Assembly (NCBI RefSeq): GCF_000470655.1 | Contig: NC_021921.1 | Coordinates: 1,922,001 to 1,986,000 of the forward strand | Length of the DNA stretch: 64,000 nucleotides | Direction of reading: 5' to 3' | Origin: Halorhabdus tiamatea SARL4B | GTDB taxonomy: Archaea > Halobacteriota > Halobacteria > Halobacteriales > Haloarculaceae | Shown here: one piece after another, positions 35,500-44,950 of the stretch | Layout of the letters: every line of letters starts with the position of its first letter | Position numbering within the stretch: position 1 is the stretch's first letter | Program-made: the position numbers and the translations under genes | Notes under the pieces: model-generated | Database searches by the model: none | Told to the model about the DNA's origin: nothing | What the model saw: only the letters and a program-made list of their open reading frames with translations

Positions 35500-35570
35500 T
35501 GGGGCCGCCGAGATTCGAACTCGGGTCCGACGCACCCCATGCGCCGAGGATACCGCTACCCTACGGTCCC
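35500..35570 (-). tRNA. tRNA-Pro (anticodon GGG)
   Basis: 71-base cloverleaf: acceptor GGGACCG/CGGCCCC, D stem GGGT/ATCC, anticodon stem GGCGC/GCGTC with loop ATGGGGT (anticodon GGG), T arm CCGAG-TTCGAAT-CTCGG, discriminator A. No CCA encoded. The fourth acceptor pair is A opposite C, because 35504 is G on the plus strand where A would be expected. A CCTTAA TATA-like element lies about 30 bases upstream, before the Cbf5 gene end. Confidence 0.92.
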
Positions 35571-35622
35571 GTGATTCGATGAATGACTGAGCCGGAGTTA
35601 AGGCCTTCGTTTCGTCGCGGGC

Positions 35623-36510
35623 TCAGACCAGCACGCGCTCGAGATCCACAACGGTCCCCTCATCGGAATCCGGGTCGCCGACGAGGGTCCCCAGACACAC
35701 CGCCGCGCCGTTCGGAATGTAGCAGGCGACGAGCGGTTCGGCGTCAGAATCGAGCCCGTCGTCGGCGTCGATCACACCCGGCGCGTAGACGGGTGCCCCC
35801 TCCGCAACTGACTCCGCGGCGCTCGGTGCGATCGTGACCGACGGGAGATCGACGAGCGCGCGTTCGGCGGGCTGGACGACCTCCCGAAGCGCTTGTGGGT
35901 CGTCGTCTTCGCGCCACCACGCGAGCGCGTCGACGAAGTCGTGCATCGTTACCAGATCGCTATCCTCGAAGGGGTCGGTCGCCGCCCGGCGGAGGTCGCC
36001 CATGTGCGCGCCGGTGCCCAGCGCCAGCCCCATGTCGTGACAGAGCTTTCGGATGTAGGTGCCACTCTCACACCGGATCGAGAGGAGGACACGGCGGTCC
36101 TCGGCTTCCAGTACGTCCAGACTGTGGATCTCCCGAGAGCGCAGCCGACGGACGACGGCGCTTTTCTTCGGCGGCTTCTGGTAGATCTCGCCCTCGAACT
36201 CGTCAGCGATGGCCTCCAGTGCGGCGGAATCGGCGAGGCGTTCGTGGAGTTCGAGGACAGCGACGTATTCCTTCCGGCTGTCGTCGAAGACCTGGGCCAT
36301 CCGGGTGGCGTCGCCGAGCAGCATCGGGAGACAGCCGGTGACCTTCGGATCGAGTGTCCCGGCGTGGGCCGCCCGGTCGACGGTCGCGAGGTCCCGGACC
36401 CAGGCGGCGACCTGGTGGGCCGAGGGGCCCGGCGGCTTGTCGAGATTCAACACGCCAAAGGACAGCAGTTCGGCCGGGGATCGGTCCTCGGGGGGTCCTC
36501 GGAGTGCCAT
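35623..36510 (-). CDS. cbf5: tRNA/rRNA pseudouridine synthase Cbf5 (H/ACA RNP catalytic subunit)
   Basis: Archaeal dyskerin homologue that turns U to pseudouridine with guide RNAs, and position 55 of tRNAs. 295 residues with the catalytic block HAGTLDPKVTG (Asp about 53), the YIRKLCHDMG motif and a C-terminal PUA-like portion (APVYAPGVIDADDG, NGAAVCLGTL). Translationally close to cmk (1 base between genes). Last protein gene of the adk-DUF106-cmk-cbf5 run. Confidence 0.94.
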   Translation of the reverse strand: MALRGPPEDRSPAELLSFGVLNLDKPPGPSAHQVAAWVRDLATVDRAAHAGTLDPKVTGCLPMLLGDATRMAQVFDDSRKEYVAVLELHERLADSAALEAIADEFEGEIYQKPPKKSAVVRRLRSREIHSLDVLEAEDRRVLLSIRCESGTYIRKLCHDMGLALGTGAHMGDLRRAATDPFEDSDLVTMHDFVDALAWWREDDDPQALREVVQPAERALVDLPSVTIAPSAAESVAEGAPVYAPGVIDADDGLDSDAEPLVACYIPNGAAVCLGTLVGDPDSDEGTVVDLERVLV

Positions 36511-38084: not shown

Positions 38085-38738
38085 TCAACGTTTTAGTTCG
38101 TCTTCGACGGCGGCCTCGAGGTCGGCCCAGACAGCATCGAGGGACTGTTCGCCGTTGATCTCGACGAACGCATCACGATCGCTGTAGTACTCGATGACGG
38201 GTTGGGTGTTCTCGGCGAAGACCTCGAGCCTGTTGCGGACGGCCTCTTCGGTGTCGTCCTCACGCTGGATCAACTCCCCGCCACACTCGTCACAGACGCC
38301 CGCCTCCTCGGGCTTGTCGAACTCGACGTGGTAGTTCTCGCCACATTCCGCACAGACCCGCCGGCCAGTCAATCGATCGACGAGTTCCTCCTCGCCGACC
38401 GACAGCGAGACGATCACGTCCAGATCGGTCATCGATTCGAGTTCCTCGGCCTGTTCTAAGTTGCGGGGATACCCGTCGAGGACGAACCCGTCGGCACTCG
38501 TCAACGCTTCCTCGACGATGGCGTTGACGACCTCGTCGGGAACGAGTTCACCCCGGTCCATGTACTCGCCGGGCGTGTCGTACGCCAGACCGAGGTCGGA
38601 GATGTCCATCTCCTTGTTCGACCGGAGTGCGTCACCCGTCGTGACGTGTTCGACGCCGAACGTCTCGACGAGGTTCGAACTCTGTGTTCCCTTACCAGCA
38701 CCTGGCGGACCCAGGAGCAGAATCTTCGGAGTGCGCAT
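38085..38738 (-). CDS. adk: Adenylate kinase
   Basis: Interconverts ATP, ADP and AMP. 217 residues: P-loop [10 protein letters not shown] (10-19), AMP site DALRSN and [11 protein letters not shown], and a LID with four cysteines (CAEC and CDEC, about 134-160) that bind zinc. This long form resembles bacterial Adk and is usual in haloarchaea. It normally follows secY in archaea, but here 4.7 kb of other genes lie between. Confidence 0.95.
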
Positions 38739-38819
38739 GTGGCCGGGTTTGCGACGGGCGGTTAACTAAGTGACGTTCTCGCCGCCGCTCGGCGTCGAGA
38801 CACTGCCTTCCCGCGCCGA

Positions 38820-40838
38820 CTACCCGTCGAGTTCGTGGACGGTGACGTTCTCGAAACGCGCTTCGGCGGTCAAGTCGTCGGTGTGGCTACAGACGGCCAG
38901 CCCGACGTGATAAGGGGCCTCGAGTTCGATCGGCAACTGATCGAGCGCCTGCCAGTCCTCGCCGTCCGTCGAGAACGACAGCGTCACGCCCCGGTCGTCC
39001 ACCACGAGTTGATACCACTGGAAGGCATCGTAGGGCTCCTCGTACTGGATACTCTCGGCGTTGTCGCCGGTTCGAGTGCGCCAGAGCGTCTCGCTCCCGT
39101 AATCCCGGGTCGCACCGATCAGCGCGAGCGCGTCGTCGGCCCCGAGTCCGTCCCGAACCATCAACCCGGCCTTGCTGTACTCCTGGACCCCGTCGAGTTC
39201 GGCCAGTCGACCCTGAATGCGGACGGGTTCGTCGGTGGTCGCGTACACGAAGTGGAACTCGTCGATGTCCTGCCAGATGTCCCGGCCGTTCCCGACGACC
39301 GTCCAGGCGTCTGTGTCCGGGTCGTAGCTCGCCTCGCCCACGACGGAGACGTCACCGATGTCCTCGTTTGTCGAAAGCGAGAGCGGTTCACCCGTTTTCG
39401 TGGTCGAGGGTTCGACGACCGGGCAGTCGGTGATCTCGAAACGCGCGCCGCCCGACTCGCTCTCGGAGACAGCGAGTTCCCAGTCCTGCTGGGTGGCTGT
39501 CTCGCTGACGATAGTCAGCCCAGTCCCGCTTCCGTCCTCGGCGGTCGTATACCCCTCCTCGAAGATCCGGTCTCGCTCGTCAGGCGGGATGCCGGGGCCG
39601 TCATCAGCCACGAAGAAACCACGACCCATCGTCCCGACGCGGACAGTCACGTCTGGGCCGGCGTGATCGACCGCGTTCTTCAGCAGATTCTCGACCAGCG
39701 GCCGGACCGTCTCGGTCTCGGCGACGATCTCGGTCCCATCGGGCACGTCGACCTCGAGGGTCGCCGTCTCGGGGCTGTCGAGTCGCCAGACGCTTTCGAG
39801 AAGTGAGGGGAACTCGGTCGTCGAGACGCCGATGTCGAGGGCGTCGAGCACTTCCTCGGAGAAGTTCGTCTCTGACGTATCACCCTTCGAAAGGGCACTC
39901 AGGTCGTCGATGATCTCGCTGATGCGATCGGTCGCGCGCTCGATGCGATCGAGCGCCTCCTCGTCCCCCTCACGAGCGCGTTCGAGCGCACCGACGATGA
40001 TCTGCAACGGCGTCCGAAGGTCGTGTGAGACGTAACTCGCGAACTTGTCGAAGCGGCGGCGCTCTTCCTCGAACCGTTTCTTGTACTGCATTCGCTTGGA
40101 GACGTCTTTAGCGTACCCGACCAGGCCGATGATTTCACCGTCTTTTCGCCACGGTATCTTCGTCGACTCAGACCAGTACTCCCCGCCGGTTCCGGTGAAC
40201 TCTTCTAACTTGTCACGGACCGGCTCGCCCGTCTCGACGACCCGGAGGTCGTCAGCGAGCGCTGCCTCCGAAACCGCTCGCTGAGAGAAGACTTCCGGAT
40301 CGGTCTTGCCCCTGGCCTCAGCCGGGTCGGCCGTGTAGGGCACGTCGGCAAAGCGAACGTATCGCCCCCGGTCGTCCTTGGCAAACATCGACAGTTTCCC
40401 CTCCGCGAGCAGCGTCTCGAGGATCGCACTGTCTGCCCCCTCGTTGCGATCGCTGTCGTACGCGGCGAGGGCGTCTTCGACAACCCCCTCGAGTGCGTGG
40501 GCGTCAGCCGACCGCGGAAGGAACCGACACCTCGACCGCTGGCTGACTGCCGTGACCAAGGACTCCTCGACGGTGGCGTAGACGACGATCGGGACGTACT
40601 CGTCTGCGTTTCGAGCGGTATCGTAGACGTCGACGAACGTCGACTCGTCGACGTCGACCGCGAGCACACAGCCGATATCGTCTCGGACCCCAACCATCGA
40701 TCCGACGTCCTCGATGTCCTCGGCTTCGACGACATCTTCGGCGGCTGAATCGACAAGCAGTGACCGAACAGCATCGAGATCTGAAGGGGATCCGCCGACG
40801 GCGAGCACCGTTTTCGGATCTGTAAGGAGACAACTCAT
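38820..40838 (-). CDS. PAS histidine kinase fused to a C-terminal lectin-like (DUF1349-type) domain
   Basis: 672 residues, no signal peptide or membrane helix. Receiver-like N-terminus about 9-115 (lacks a clear phospho-aspartate), PAS/PAC about 130-260 (KDDRGRYVRFADVPYTADP, GLVGYAKDVSKRM), HisKA with His272 (YVSHDLRTPLQ), HATPase (NLLKNAVDHAG, ADDGPGIPPDE, GSGTGLTIV). From about 494 to the end lies a beta-sandwich resembling the concanavalin-like DUF1349 module of glycoside-hydrolase-linked proteins (GRDIWQDIDEFHFVYATTDE, YSKAGLMVRDGLGADDALALI). ATG 40838 (MSCLLTDPKT) is preferred to the frame from 40964. Confidence 0.85.
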   Translation of the reverse strand: MSCLLTDPKTVLAVGGSPSDLDAVRSLLVDSAAEDVVEAEDIEDVGSMVGVRDDIGCVLAVDVDESTFVDVYDTARNADEYVPIVVYATVEESLVTAVSQRSRCRFLPRSADAHALEGVVEDALAAYDSDRNEGADSAILETLLAEGKLSMFAKDDRGRYVRFADVPYTADPAEARGKTDPEVFSQRAVSEAALADDLRVVETGEPVRDKLEEFTGTGGEYWSESTKIPWRKDGEIIGLVGYAKDVSKRMQYKKRFEEERRRFDKFASYVSHDLRTPLQIIVGALERAREGDEEALDRIERATDRISEIIDDLSALSKGDTSETNFSEEVLDALDIGVSTTEFPSLLESVWRLDSPETATLEVDVPDGTEIVAETETVRPLVENLLKNAVDHAGPDVTVRVGTMGRGFFVADDGPGIPPDERDRIFEEGYTTAEDGSGTGLTIVSETATQQDWELAVSESESGGARFEITDCPVVEPSTTKTGEPLSLSTNEDIGDVSVVGEASYDPDTDAWTVVGNGRDIWQDIDEFHFVYATTDEPVRIQGRLAELDGVQEYSKAGLMVRDGLGADDALALIGATRDYGSETLWRTRTGDNAESIQYEEPYDAFQWYQLVVDDRGVTLSFSTDGEDWQALDQLPIELEAPYHVGLAVCSHTDDLTAEARFENVTVHELDG

Positions 40839-41012
40839 CCGGTTTAGCTCGATCCTACGCAACGGGAGTAAATAATACCCCGGGCTGTTTTCGAGACAGA
40901 CGACAGTTTTCGTGACAATCCTTCGCGAAAAGGCAGGCATCAGTGGCGAGACGGGAGCGGCCATGCCGATCGAAGGAATCGCTTAACCACGTCGCCCCCC
41001 AACCGAGCGCCG

Positions 41013-42020
41013 ATGAACGACTTACTCGTGCGGGCCGCCCGCGGCGAGCGCACCGAACGCCCACCGGTGTGGCTGATGCGTCAGGCCGGCCGACACCTCC
41101 CCGAGTACCGCGAGATACGCGAGGAGTACGACTTCCTCGAAGCTGTCACGACACCCGAGATCGCCGCAGAGATCACACTCCAGCCCTACGAGCGGTATCG
41201 AACCGACGGCGTCGTGATGTTCTCGGACATTCTGACGGTTCTCGAACCGCTCGGCTTCGCCTATCACATCGAGTCCGGCACTGGCCCCGTCGTCGACGCA
41301 CCGATCTCCGGGCCAGACGATGTCCCGCAAACGTACGACGACGTCGGATCGTCACTGGCGTACGTCGGCGACTTGCTCGACCGACTCGACGCCCGGGTCG
41401 GCGACGAGACGGGGATCATCGGCTTCGCCGGCGGCCCGTTCACGCTTGCCTCGTACGCGGTCGCGGGACGGGCGACGCGAAATCACTACCCGCTCCGGCA
41501 GTTCACGGCCCGCCACCCCGAGGCGTTCGCGGACCTGCTCTCGATCGTGGCCGACGCTGTCCGGGAGTTCCTCCAGTACCAGGTCGCCCACGGCGCGGAC
41601 GTCGTCCAGCTGTTCGACACCTACGCCGGGGTGTTGCCGCCGGCAGACTATCAGGAACTCATTCTGCCACTCCACCGGAAAATTCTGGCCGACCTCGAGG
41701 TCCCGACGATCGTCTTCGTCCGGAACATGGGCGGCCGCCTCGACCAGTTGACTGCGACGGGTGCCGACGTGATCGGTCTCGACTGGACCGTCGAGATGGG
41801 TACGGCCCGCGAACAGTTAGGAGATCGCCCTGTCCAGGGGAATCTCGATCCGTCCGTCCTCTTCGCCGATCCCGAGACCGTCCGCGAGCGAACGCGCGAG
41901 GTAATCGAGCAGGCGGGACCGCGGGGACACGTTCTCAACCTCGGTCACGGCCTCCATCGGGACACACCCATCGAGGGCGTCGAGGCGTTCGTCGAGACCG
42001 CAAAGTCGATCGAGCGCTGA
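41013..42020 (+). CDS. hemE: Uroporphyrinogen decarboxylase
   Basis: Converts uroporphyrinogen III to coproporphyrinogen III in haem synthesis. 335 residues with the signature RPPVWLMRQAGRHLPEYRE (about 17-35), the FSDILTVLEPLG block and the C-terminal GHVLNLGHGLHRDTP. It is convergent with hemH, with 13 bases between stops. Confidence 0.95.
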   Translation: MNDLLVRAARGERTERPPVWLMRQAGRHLPEYREIREEYDFLEAVTTPEIAAEITLQPYERYRTDGVVMFSDILTVLEPLGFAYHIESGTGPVVDAPISGPDDVPQTYDDVGSSLAYVGDLLDRLDARVGDETGIIGFAGGPFTLASYAVAGRATRNHYPLRQFTARHPEAFADLLSIVADAVREFLQYQVAHGADVVQLFDTYAGVLPPADYQELILPLHRKILADLEVPTIVFVRNMGGRLDQLTATGADVIGLDWTVEMGTAREQLGDRPVQGNLDPSVLFADPETVRERTREVIEQAGPRGHVLNLGHGLHRDTPIEGVEAFVETAKSIER

Positions 42021-42033
42021 GAGAGCAAAGCGG

Positions 42034-43077
42034 TCACTCCAGGGGCGCGTTCAGACACATCGTCCCCGGTTCGTCCCGGCACTGACACTGCCGGAACTGA
42101 TAGACTGCGGGATCGAAGTCGGCGATGAAGGGCTCGACGAGATCTTCCAGGACGCCGACGAACCGCTCGTCGTCGTGGGGGATAGGGACACGGTAGAACT
42201 CCAGACCCGCCGCCTCGGCTTCCTCGCGCAACTCGACGTCGAGTTCCGAGAGTGTCTCGCTCTGTTCGTGCATGAAGCTGATCGGCTCGACGACGACGCG
42301 CTCGGCGTCAACCCGCTCGATGACGTCCTCGACCTCGGGTTCGGTCCACGGGATCCCGCGGTTCTCGTGGTTCTGATAGCCGAGTTCGTACTCGTCGATC
42401 CCGAGCAGCCCCGCGACAGTCTCGACGTATTCGGTAACGTAGATGTCGTACCGGCTGCCCTCCGCGAGGTAGTGCTGTGGCGTGCCGTGGGCCGAGAATA
42501 CCAGCGCCGTGTCGGGGTCAGTCAGATCGACGTCACGCTCGTCGGCGAAGGCTTCGATGTTGTCAACCCGCAAGCGAGGGTAATCGGGGTGGCGATGCCA
42601 GCCCGAGATTTCCTGGAGCGCGTCGAACTCACGCTCGTCGGCCGCCGCGCGGAGTTCTTCGAGGGCGTCGACGGTCGTCGAGGGGCCGCTGAGCGGGTAG
42701 ATCGGCAGGCCGATGATCTCGTCGTGACCGTCGGCGATGGCTGCCTCGAGCGCCTCGTCGATGAACGGCTCGGTGAACTGCATCCCGAGGTAGGTCTCGA
42801 CGTCGTGACCACGCTCGCGGAGTCGCTCCTCAAGGGCCTGTGCCTGACCGCGAGCCTGTTCGTTCAGCGGTGAGCCACCGATCTCCTCGTACTCTTCGAT
42901 GAGTGGGCCGGCGCGGCGCTCGGCCAACTCCCGGGACCGCTCGCGAGCTTCAGCCTCGGTCGTGTCGCCCTCGATCTCGCGATTGTTGAAGAAAATACGT
43001 TCGAGATACGAGACGACGGCCTCACGCTCGGGCGTGGCTGGTTCGCCGAAGTTCAACAGCAAGATTCCGGTCGACAT
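42034..43077 (-). CDS. hemH: Ferrochelatase-like protein with C-terminal cysteine cluster
   Basis: Inserts iron into a porphyrin as the late step of haem synthesis. 347 residues: LLLNFGEPATPE at the start, SAHGTPQHYLAEGSRYD containing the metal-binding histidine, and ISFMHEQSETLSELDVEL. The end reads CQCRDEPGTMC (Cys331, Cys333, Cys341), a likely [2Fe-2S] ligand set. Coproporphyrin ferrochelatase (decarboxylative branch) is also possible. The gene sits among secY and hemE rather than with other haem genes. Confidence 0.9.
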   Translation of the reverse strand: MSTGILLLNFGEPATPEREAVVSYLERIFFNNREIEGDTTEAEARERSRELAERRAGPLIEEYEEIGGSPLNEQARGQAQALEERLRERGHDVETYLGMQFTEPFIDEALEAAIADGHDEIIGLPIYPLSGPSTTVDALEELRAAADEREFDALQEISGWHRHPDYPRLRVDNIEAFADERDVDLTDPDTALVFSAHGTPQHYLAEGSRYDIYVTEYVETVAGLLGIDEYELGYQNHENRGIPWTEPEVEDVIERVDAERVVVEPISFMHEQSETLSELDVELREEAEAAGLEFYRVPIPHDDERFVGVLEDLVEPFIADFDPAVYQFRQCQCRDEPGTMCLNAPLE

Positions 43078-43434
43078 GGTCCGTCCTTACGGCTGGATCG
43101 GAAAAGAGGTTTGCCTGCCGGCGGATTGATCGAGTAACACTCGCCGTCCGCGAACGAAGTGAGCGTCTCGAATGCGAGCGGTGTAACCGCGAGCGAACTG
43201 ACCCGTGAGCAGCGAGGACGAGCGAAGCGAGTCCTCGGCACGAGCGAGCGGGGAGTGAAACGACCCGCGAGCCCAGCGATCCGTGGACGACGGGAGCGTC
43301 TCAGAAACGCGAACAGCTATAGCGCGGAACGAAGCTCCGCGGACCATTTGATGGGTTTTCGGCCCGCGAGAAGAATTCGTGAGCGGAGCGAGCGATTTAC
43401 CGACGACGAGCGGTCGAACCGCGAGTCGTCGGCC
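43078..43434. other. Palindrome-rich spacer downstream of secY
   Basis: About 360 bases without a gene between hemH and secY, on the downstream side of secY. It is filled with short GAGCGAAGCGAG- and CGAACGAAGTGAGCG-type imperfect palindromes, including GAGGAC-gagcgaagc-GAGTCCTCG near 43218 and GACGACGAG-cggtcgaaccg-CGAGTCGTC near 43402. Open frames here are arginine/serine-rich translations of the palindromes. Confidence 0.5.
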
Positions 43435-43495
43435 TTTTTGGTGCAGATTTTTGCGCCGAGAGGTGCGCGTTGCGCACCCGAGGCGGAAAAAGGTG
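43435..43495 (-). terminator. Hairpin element, copy B, directly after secY; probable terminator
   Basis: It begins at the base after the secY stop. On the minus strand: CACCTTTTTCC, then stem GGGTGCGC/GCGCACC, then CAAAAATCTGCACCAAAAAGG. The T5 tract plus stem would end the long ribosomal transcript. The flanks match copy A at 35200-35262 while the stem sequence differs. Confidence 0.55.
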
Positions 43496-44950
43496 CTAGC
43501 CGAACATCTGGCGCATCATGGGATGCATCTCCATGAGTTGCTCCTCGGCGATCTCCTCGTAGAGCTTGTAGGTGATACTCACCGTCAGCAGCAGGCCGGT
43601 GCCGGTGACGTTGCCGAGCGTGCCCATCATGTTCGCCATGACGGCGAGTAGCCCGACCAGAGCCCCGCCGATGACCGTCACCTGCGGGATGTAGCGGGCG
43701 AGCACCTTCTCTAAGACGCCAGGACTCTGGCGGAACCCGGGGATCTGCATGCCGGAGTTCTGGATCTGTTGGGCGGTCGCCTCCGGGCCCATGTCGGTGG
43801 TTTCGACCCAGAAGACGGCGAAGATCGCGCCGCCGAGCAGCATGAACGTCAGGTCCACGCCGATCCGGATCATGATCTGCCAGGTCTCCGCGGAGACGTT
43901 GTGGACGAACCACGCCCAGTCCTGGGGGCTCTGGATCGGTGCGAGGTAGTAGAACAGGCCGCTGACTGCCTGTCCGTTGTCGTTGTACGTCCCGAGCCAG
44001 GCGGGCAACCCGCCAAGCTGGGAGTTGAGCAGTCGACCCAGGAACTGGATGTTCATCTGCAGGGCCCGGACGAGGATCATCGGCAGGACGCTCGCGTAGA
44101 TGAGTTTCACCGGGAAACGACCCCGTGCGCCCTTCACGCGAGCGTGACTCAGCGGAATCTCGACGCGGACGGACTCCGCGTAGACGACGATCACGAAGAT
44201 CAGTACCGTCGTGATCAGCGGGATGATCATCCCCTGGTTGAACAGCAGGTCGATCATCCCGGACCCAGTCAGCACCGACGGGAGTTCACGGTAGCCCAGC
44301 GCCATGCCGACCCAGGAGGGGATGAACCCCCAGTTGCCGGAGATCTGGGGGAAACCGATGATCCCGCCGACGAGACTCTGGCTGACGCCGGCGACGATGA
44401 ACAGGCCGATCCCGCTACCGACGCCCCACTTGCTGATCACCTCGTCCATGTAGAGGATGAGGACACCGCCGGCGAAGATCTGGGCGAACATGAGCCACTT
44501 CACGATCCCGGTGCTCAGACCCAAGACGGACTCGGCCGGCAGGAAGTCCGCGGCGAACACCATCGGAAAGCCCGTCAGCACGATCATCACGAGCACCAGC
44601 AACTTCTGGAGACCCTGATAGAGCACCTGATCGCGCGGGTTGTTCTGGGTGTCCAGCCCGAGCAAGTCGGCCCCGCCAAGCAACTGCAGGACGATGCTCG
44701 CGGTGACGATCGGTCCGATCCCCAGTTGCAGGATCGATCCCTGCTGTGAGGCGAGGATCGACGAGAATCGACCGAACGCGTTCGAGCCCCCGGTACCGAG
44801 TCCGTAGATGTTGATGTTGGTCAGGAAGAAAAACAGGACCAACACGCCGGCCGTCCAGCCCAGCTTGCGCTTGAAGGGCACGTGGCCCTCCGGGCGGGCG
44901 ACCGACGGCATCCGCGTGAGTAGTGGTTCGGCGGTGTCCTTCCAGCTCAT
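43496..44950 (-). CDS. secY: Preprotein translocase subunit SecY
   Basis: Channel subunit of the Sec translocon. 484 residues with ten membrane segments. It contains the plug region after helix 1 (GTGGSNAFGRFSSILASQQGSILQLG) and the helix 8/9 loop with basic residues (SHARVKGARGRFPVK). The archaeal position at the end of the spc operon is kept. ATG 44950 (MSWKDTAEPLL) two bases after rpl15. Confidence 0.96.
   Translation of the reverse strand: MSWKDTAEPLLTRMPSVARPEGHVPFKRKLGWTAGVLVLFFFLTNINIYGLGTGGSNAFGRFSSILASQQGSILQLGIGPIVTASIVLQLLGGADLLGLDTQNNPRDQVLYQGLQKLLVLVMIVLTGFPMVFAADFLPAESVLGLSTGIVKWLMFAQIFAGGVLILYMDEVISKWGVGSGIGLFIVAGVSQSLVGGIIGFPQISGNWGFIPSWVGMALGYRELPSVLTGSGMIDLLFNQGMIIPLITTVLIFVIVVYAESVRVEIPLSHARVKGARGRFPVKLIYASVLPMILVRALQMNIQFLGRLLNSQLGGLPAWLGTYNDNGQAVSGLFYYLAPIQSPQDWAWFVHNVSAETWQIMIRIGVDLTFMLLGGAIFAVFWVETTDMGPEATAQQIQNSGMQIPGFRQSPGVLEKVLARYIPQVTVIGGALVGLLAVMANMMGTLGNVTGTGLLLTVSITYKLYEEIAEEQLMEMHPMMRQMFG

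Follow-up and report, generated by a model that had tools for sequence, protein, structure and literature searches.

The window, i.e., the whole stretch of 64,000 nucleotides analyzed here, comes from a haloarchaeal chromosome (G000:C2, 2,815,791 bases; the second contig has 330,369 bases). On its minus strand, at 38820..40838, we found an uninterrupted frame of 672 amino acids for a sensor histidine kinase with a DUF1349/concanavalin-A-like (ConA-like) tail. The ATG lies at 40838 and the stop at 38822-38820; this start is supported by the G089 orthologue, where the stop-to-stop frame leaves 18 residues ahead of the same Met. Neighboring genes, named from sequence, are hemE on the plus strand (41013) and adk on the minus strand (38738). 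The TATA-like AT-rich element TATTATTTA was read at 40869..40877 on the minus strand, 31-39 bases 5' of the kinase start codon, and is a possible haloarchaeal promoter that would serve the kinase gene alone. A sigma-70 scan for the kinase promoter was uninformative for archaea. Together with hemE and hemH, the kinase gene sits between secY and adk (window 38085-44950), which are frequently near each other in archaeal ribosomal-protein-linked clusters. The kinase occupied the hemE/adk site in those examined members of its genus that bear GH10 xylanases (G050, G089). Outside this genus no conserved gene neighborhood was found, adk/hemE adjacency being confined to the genus, and the neighborhood comparison yielded no partner response regulator gene near the kinase. 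Elsewhere in the window, an ARAGORN tmRNA call (35500-36031) over the truB gene overlaps tRNA-Pro (35500-35570) and is almost surely false.

The kinase comprises five domains and a linker, all encoded on the minus strand. Residues 10-130 (40449..40811) form a REC-like N-terminal domain with alternating beta/alpha structure, modeled by full-length AlphaFold2 at a pLDDT of about 88. Pfam Response_reg stayed below cut-off in the window protein and was reached in nine of 37 aligned family members. The original prediction had recognized the kinase and the tail and left this N-terminal domain unnamed. PAS_4 (residues 155-249, 40092..40376, E 9.2e-10) is followed by the dimerization/phosphoacceptor domain HisKA (residues 265-321, 39876..40046, E 1.3e-14), with His272 within SHDLRTPLQ as predicted phospho-acceptor, and by the catalytic domain HATPase_c (residues 377-470, 39429..39710, E 2e-16). 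All kinase boxes are intact, i.e., FASYVSHDLRTPLQ, ENLLKNAVDH (N-box), DDGPGIP (G1) and GSGTGL (G2), and the HisKA/HATPase_c motifs class the protein as a sensor histidine kinase. A linker at residues 471-487 (39378..39428), weakly conserved in sequence and of near-constant length in the family, leads to the ConA-like beta-sandwich tail at residues 488-672 (38823..39377), assigned by Pfam DUF1349 (PF07081), AlphaFold2 and Foldseek. The DUF1349 match covers residues 505-669 with E 1.8e-8 and 34.7 bits in the full-length search (cut-off 32.4), and the tail alone as query reached 39.1 bits (E 8e-10). PAS_4, HisKA, HATPase_c and DUF1349 thus each lie above the Pfam cut-off; GH43_C2 (PF17851) stayed below it (13.2 bits, cut-off 22.7, E 0.07), and the protein is not counted as a member of that family. 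No membrane helix was detected in the protein (best 19-residue Kyte-Doolittle mean 1.2) and its N-terminus is not signal-like. Hence the two structural claims of the original prediction, a soluble kinase lacking signal peptide and membrane helix and a DUF1349/ConA-like domain C-terminal to the HATPase, were both borne out.

Searching the PDB with the tail sequence, alone or as a four-row profile, gave chance matches only, mostly kelch-type, and a fold search was therefore needed. From four tails (the window protein, its HArc-gm2 relative and two from Halosimplex salinum), AlphaFold2 produced a nearly all-beta model with pLDDT 80 and pTM 0.84. In Foldseek against the PDB, the top matches were 3mep (E 1.8e-7) and 3o12 (E 3.0e-7), with TM 0.55-0.68. 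We take 3mep (ECA2234) and 3o12 to be DUF1349 proteins, the latter presumably Saccharomyces cerevisiae YJL217W/Ree1 and intracellular. They match the tail best in fold, but they are stand-alone proteins with 16-19% identity to it and contain no kinase. Next came GH43 beta-xylosidase C-terminal domains (9he8, 8uws, 1yrz; 1.5e-5 and weaker) and other ConA-like lectins and glucanases; the GH43 domains resemble the tail in fold and, unlike it, are part of a glycosidase. From model and Foldseek neighbors, the ConA-like assignment proposed for the last ~180 residues is right. A full-length AlphaFold2 model from four rows was poor (pLDDT 58), so that domain packing and the contact between tail and ATPase domain are unreadable.

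Relatives of the tail occurred in 46 of 294 haloarchaeal genomes. Reading their frames revealed two kinds, i.e., kinases with the domain at the extreme C-terminus and predicted polysaccharide-active proteins that carry GH5 cellulase, GH81, RGL11 lyase, pectate-lyase-like, ricin-B lectin or dockerin modules. The latter agree with the earlier remark that the tail resembles modules of secreted glycoside-active proteins, since haloarchaeal relatives do combine it with GH5, GH81, RGL11 and ricin-B. In the window's own genome, the tail-relative search detected no secreted-type DUF1349 gene. A further DUF1349 domain of the classical type, apparently stand-alone, lies in this genome at G000:C2:1476605-1477126 (L053, E 1.7e-64). 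Kinase-DUF1349 fusions were present in 22 of the 294 genomes, from nine genera. We analyzed 40 single-frame fusion proteins, two of them from Halosimplex salinum and the others from these 22 genomes. Among 37 aligned proteins (36 kinases), DUF1349 was found in 36 (at E 0.01), HisKA in 35 and HATPase_c in 34. No relatives outside haloarchaea were found among 295 genomes drawn from the phylum, and a plasmid search returned secreted-type DUF1349 modules (27-32% identity) and no kinase fusion.

The search for the same fusion in relatives thus yielded about 40 single-frame proteins of identical domain order. Within the genus of the window, dN/dS was 0.07-0.12 for the tail, 0.05-0.09 for HATPase, 0.27-0.35 for REC and 0.24-0.32 for the linker; the tail is hence under constraint similar to that on the ATPase domain. 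A frameshift or annotation artefact fusing two genes is refuted by these relatives together with the purifying selection on the tail, and we give it practically no probability.

For the origin of the fusion, we compared the 40 tailed kinases with the 30 tailless kinases most similar to the window's core, found in 117 genomes. In the core tree the two sets lay on opposite sides (support 99/94), and the presence of a tail had to change only once, as it did in 100% of the bootstrap replicates. The tail tree separated kinase tails from 21 secreted-type DUF1349 modules (99/96), again with a single change. These secreted-type haloarchaeal modules are of the same family as the tail, with about 30-35% identity and scaffold residues in common, but they are predicted to be extracellular, form the separate branch and have another conserved residue set. 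The trees are consistent with a single fusion event, with no loss among the sampled proteins, and with later duplication and transfer. We propose that an ancestor of haloarchaeal lineages gained the ConA-like DUF1349 domain once, after the ATPase domain of a REC-like/PAS/HisKA/HATPase kinase. The unusual position after the ATPase domain, noted in the original prediction, is accordingly real, yet it is not a one-off, as the architecture is fixed across 40 proteins and evolved once. The nearest tailless paralogue in the window's genome is L105:1056-3191 (G000:C2 about 1520055-1522190), which lies directly after a GH5 cellulase-family gene (G000:C2:1518872-1519663).

The spacing between HATPase and tail was 19-21 residues in 35 of the 40 tailed kinases, and the linker sequence was variable. 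The short, near-constant linker therefore tethers the tail close to the ATPase domain. Such a linker would also suit a structural passenger that stabilizes the ATPase domain and leaves input to REC and PAS, which are the usual archaeal inputs (PMC5847659). However, the 30 nearest relatives do without a tail, the tail was never lost in the 40 proteins, and its conservation extends beyond the core to specific polar positions. We consider a mere passenger very improbable.

Both kinds of DUF1349 domain have G92, R96, W120, R121 and S157 in common (tail numbering), as well as D159-G160, W163, G180, L181 and F196. Secreted-type modules are nearly fixed for R109 (0.86), Q119 (0.95) and Y155 (0.95), where kinase tails have instead a set of their own, i.e., G109 (0.97), E117 (0.90), T153 (0.93), D167 (0.97), Q168 (0.88) and R169 (0.85); the window protein itself has Leu at the R169 position. 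As judged from strand alternation only, the positions specific to kinase tails would face one surface. We read the tail as a retained scaffold with a re-specified site. It did not keep the secreted-type residue set, i.e., R109, Q119 and Y155 were replaced and scaffold residues retained, and we therefore did not file it as a carbohydrate-binding module. A true intracellular carbohydrate-binding module, acting on polysaccharides or glycoproteins such as storage glucan or nascent S-layer glycans, would agree with the ConA-like fold and with the scaffold residues common to secreted modules (G92, R96, W120, R121, S157, D159-G160, W163), but the same three replacements speak against it and make it quite improbable. 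The original prediction had left the choice between a sugar or glycan sensed inside the cell and recruitment for another ligand, and the replaced R109, Q119 and Y155 favor the second option, in which the domain was recruited for a different ligand or for a partner. The changed site therefore cautions against assuming a sugar ligand.

Seven of the 40 tailed proteins lost kinase motifs and kept the tail. In L042_5304, L043_1838 and L044_5066, the His is changed to Gln and the N, G1 and G2 boxes are lost; L039 and L040_1774 lost the His, and L035/L038 show changes in the N-, G1- and G2-boxes. The degenerate proteins at L042:5304-7361, L043:1838-3889, L044:5066-7576 and L040:1774-4056 are each encoded directly upstream of a tailed kinase that is active by its motifs, which suggests that such neighbors may work as pseudokinase/kinase pairs. 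In the g5 pseudokinases, constraint on the tail is looser (dN/dS 0.35-0.94, with dS very small), so that these tails may be decaying.

Retention of the tail in decayed kinases, in two lineages (L040; L042/L043/L044) next to an active tailed kinase, would also be expected of a protein-protein interaction or localization module that docks a partner or pairs with the neighboring tailed kinase and binds no sugar. The exchange of secreted-type positions for conserved, partly charged E117, D167, Q168 and R169 points the same way, as does the presumed intracellular location of the yeast relative 3o12. Against docking, most tailed kinases lie outside tandem pairs, and the usual context of the fold and the association with GH10 described below point to glycans. 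On balance, docking seems somewhat unlikely.

GH10 xylanases were found in 35 of 294 haloarchaeal genomes and in 12 of the 22 fusion genomes (Fisher 3.5e-7). Counts of GH10 per genome are those among the matches listed, where about seven means at least seven. Where a genome had at least five GH10, which was so in 12, the fusion was present in 11 (Fisher 2.8e-13); this threshold was picked post hoc with the counts already known. At genus level, the association amounted to 5/6 versus 9/78 (3.4e-5). More telling than these counts is the finer pattern. The orthologue clade of the window kinase (support 100/99) was confined to genomes that have five or more GH10. Among the seven genomes of the window's genus, the orthologue was present in exactly the three with GH10, and in a second genus, also of seven genomes, relatives were present in exactly the three with GH10 (G283, G138, G266). 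Another genome of the second genus, G536 (89% complete), carries tailed kinases of the sister group, and GH10 was not detected in it. Halosimplex salinum, which belongs to the orthologue clade and lies outside these counts, has six GH10 genes, as we had predicted beforehand from the pattern. Glucomannan was the substrate on which strain HArc-gm2 was isolated (PMC9726719). Ten of the 22 fusion genomes are without GH10 and carry other, more divergent groups of tailed kinases, most of whose genomes lack GH10; xylan is therefore not what the family as a whole serves. No linkage of kinase and GH10 genes was seen on the chromosome, where the kinase gene lies far from them. By co-occurrence, the orthologue group of the window is tied to plant-polysaccharide degraders; such a pattern could also arise from lifestyle or from genes being transferred together.

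Our main reading, to which we assign a probability of about 0.45, is that the tail is a regulatory module for binding a ligand or partner in a cytosolic kinase tied to plant-polysaccharide (xylan) use. In the cytosol, the tail would bind either a soluble ligand or a protein partner and, from its place beside the ATPase domain, may shift the balance of autophosphorylation and phosphatase activity or position the kinase. As the orthologue group of the window most likely regulates plant-polysaccharide (xylan) use, a first candidate would be a sugar or sugar phosphate derived from xylan or cellulose, or a protein of that pathway. PAS and REC are possible additional inputs. A wider reading, that the fold of secreted-type glycan modules was turned into a cytosolic sensor and gave rise to ligand-gated kinases for plant-polysaccharide use, some of them paired with a sensing-only pseudokinase, is unlikely in our estimate.

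Soluble REC-PAS kinases are already known in archaea (PMC5847659; PMC6944256). In the census of Galperin et al. 2018 (PMC5847659), 62% of archaeal kinases lack membrane segments and many have an N-terminal REC. Its REC-HisK class shares cytosolic location and N-terminal domain order with the window kinase but ends at the ATPase domain, where the window kinase continues into the DUF1349 tail. The sections of the census that were consulted name no ConA-like or DUF1349 domain, and those of PMC6944256 likewise mention no kinase with a DUF1349 tail. In the literature searched, full text included, we found no description of a histidine kinase fused to DUF1349, and the DUF1349-tailed architecture is thus apparently new. 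The same literature held no haloarchaeal histidine kinase regulating xylan use.

Input domains after the ATPase domain are rare, and most archaeal kinases are without a known signal. In the DUF1349-tailed kinases, a single conserved domain of known fold, acquired once, offers a compact target for ligand screening, and the pattern among xylan degraders indicates the ligands and growth conditions with which to begin. The tailed kinase is hence a testable candidate for a sugar-related intracellular switch.
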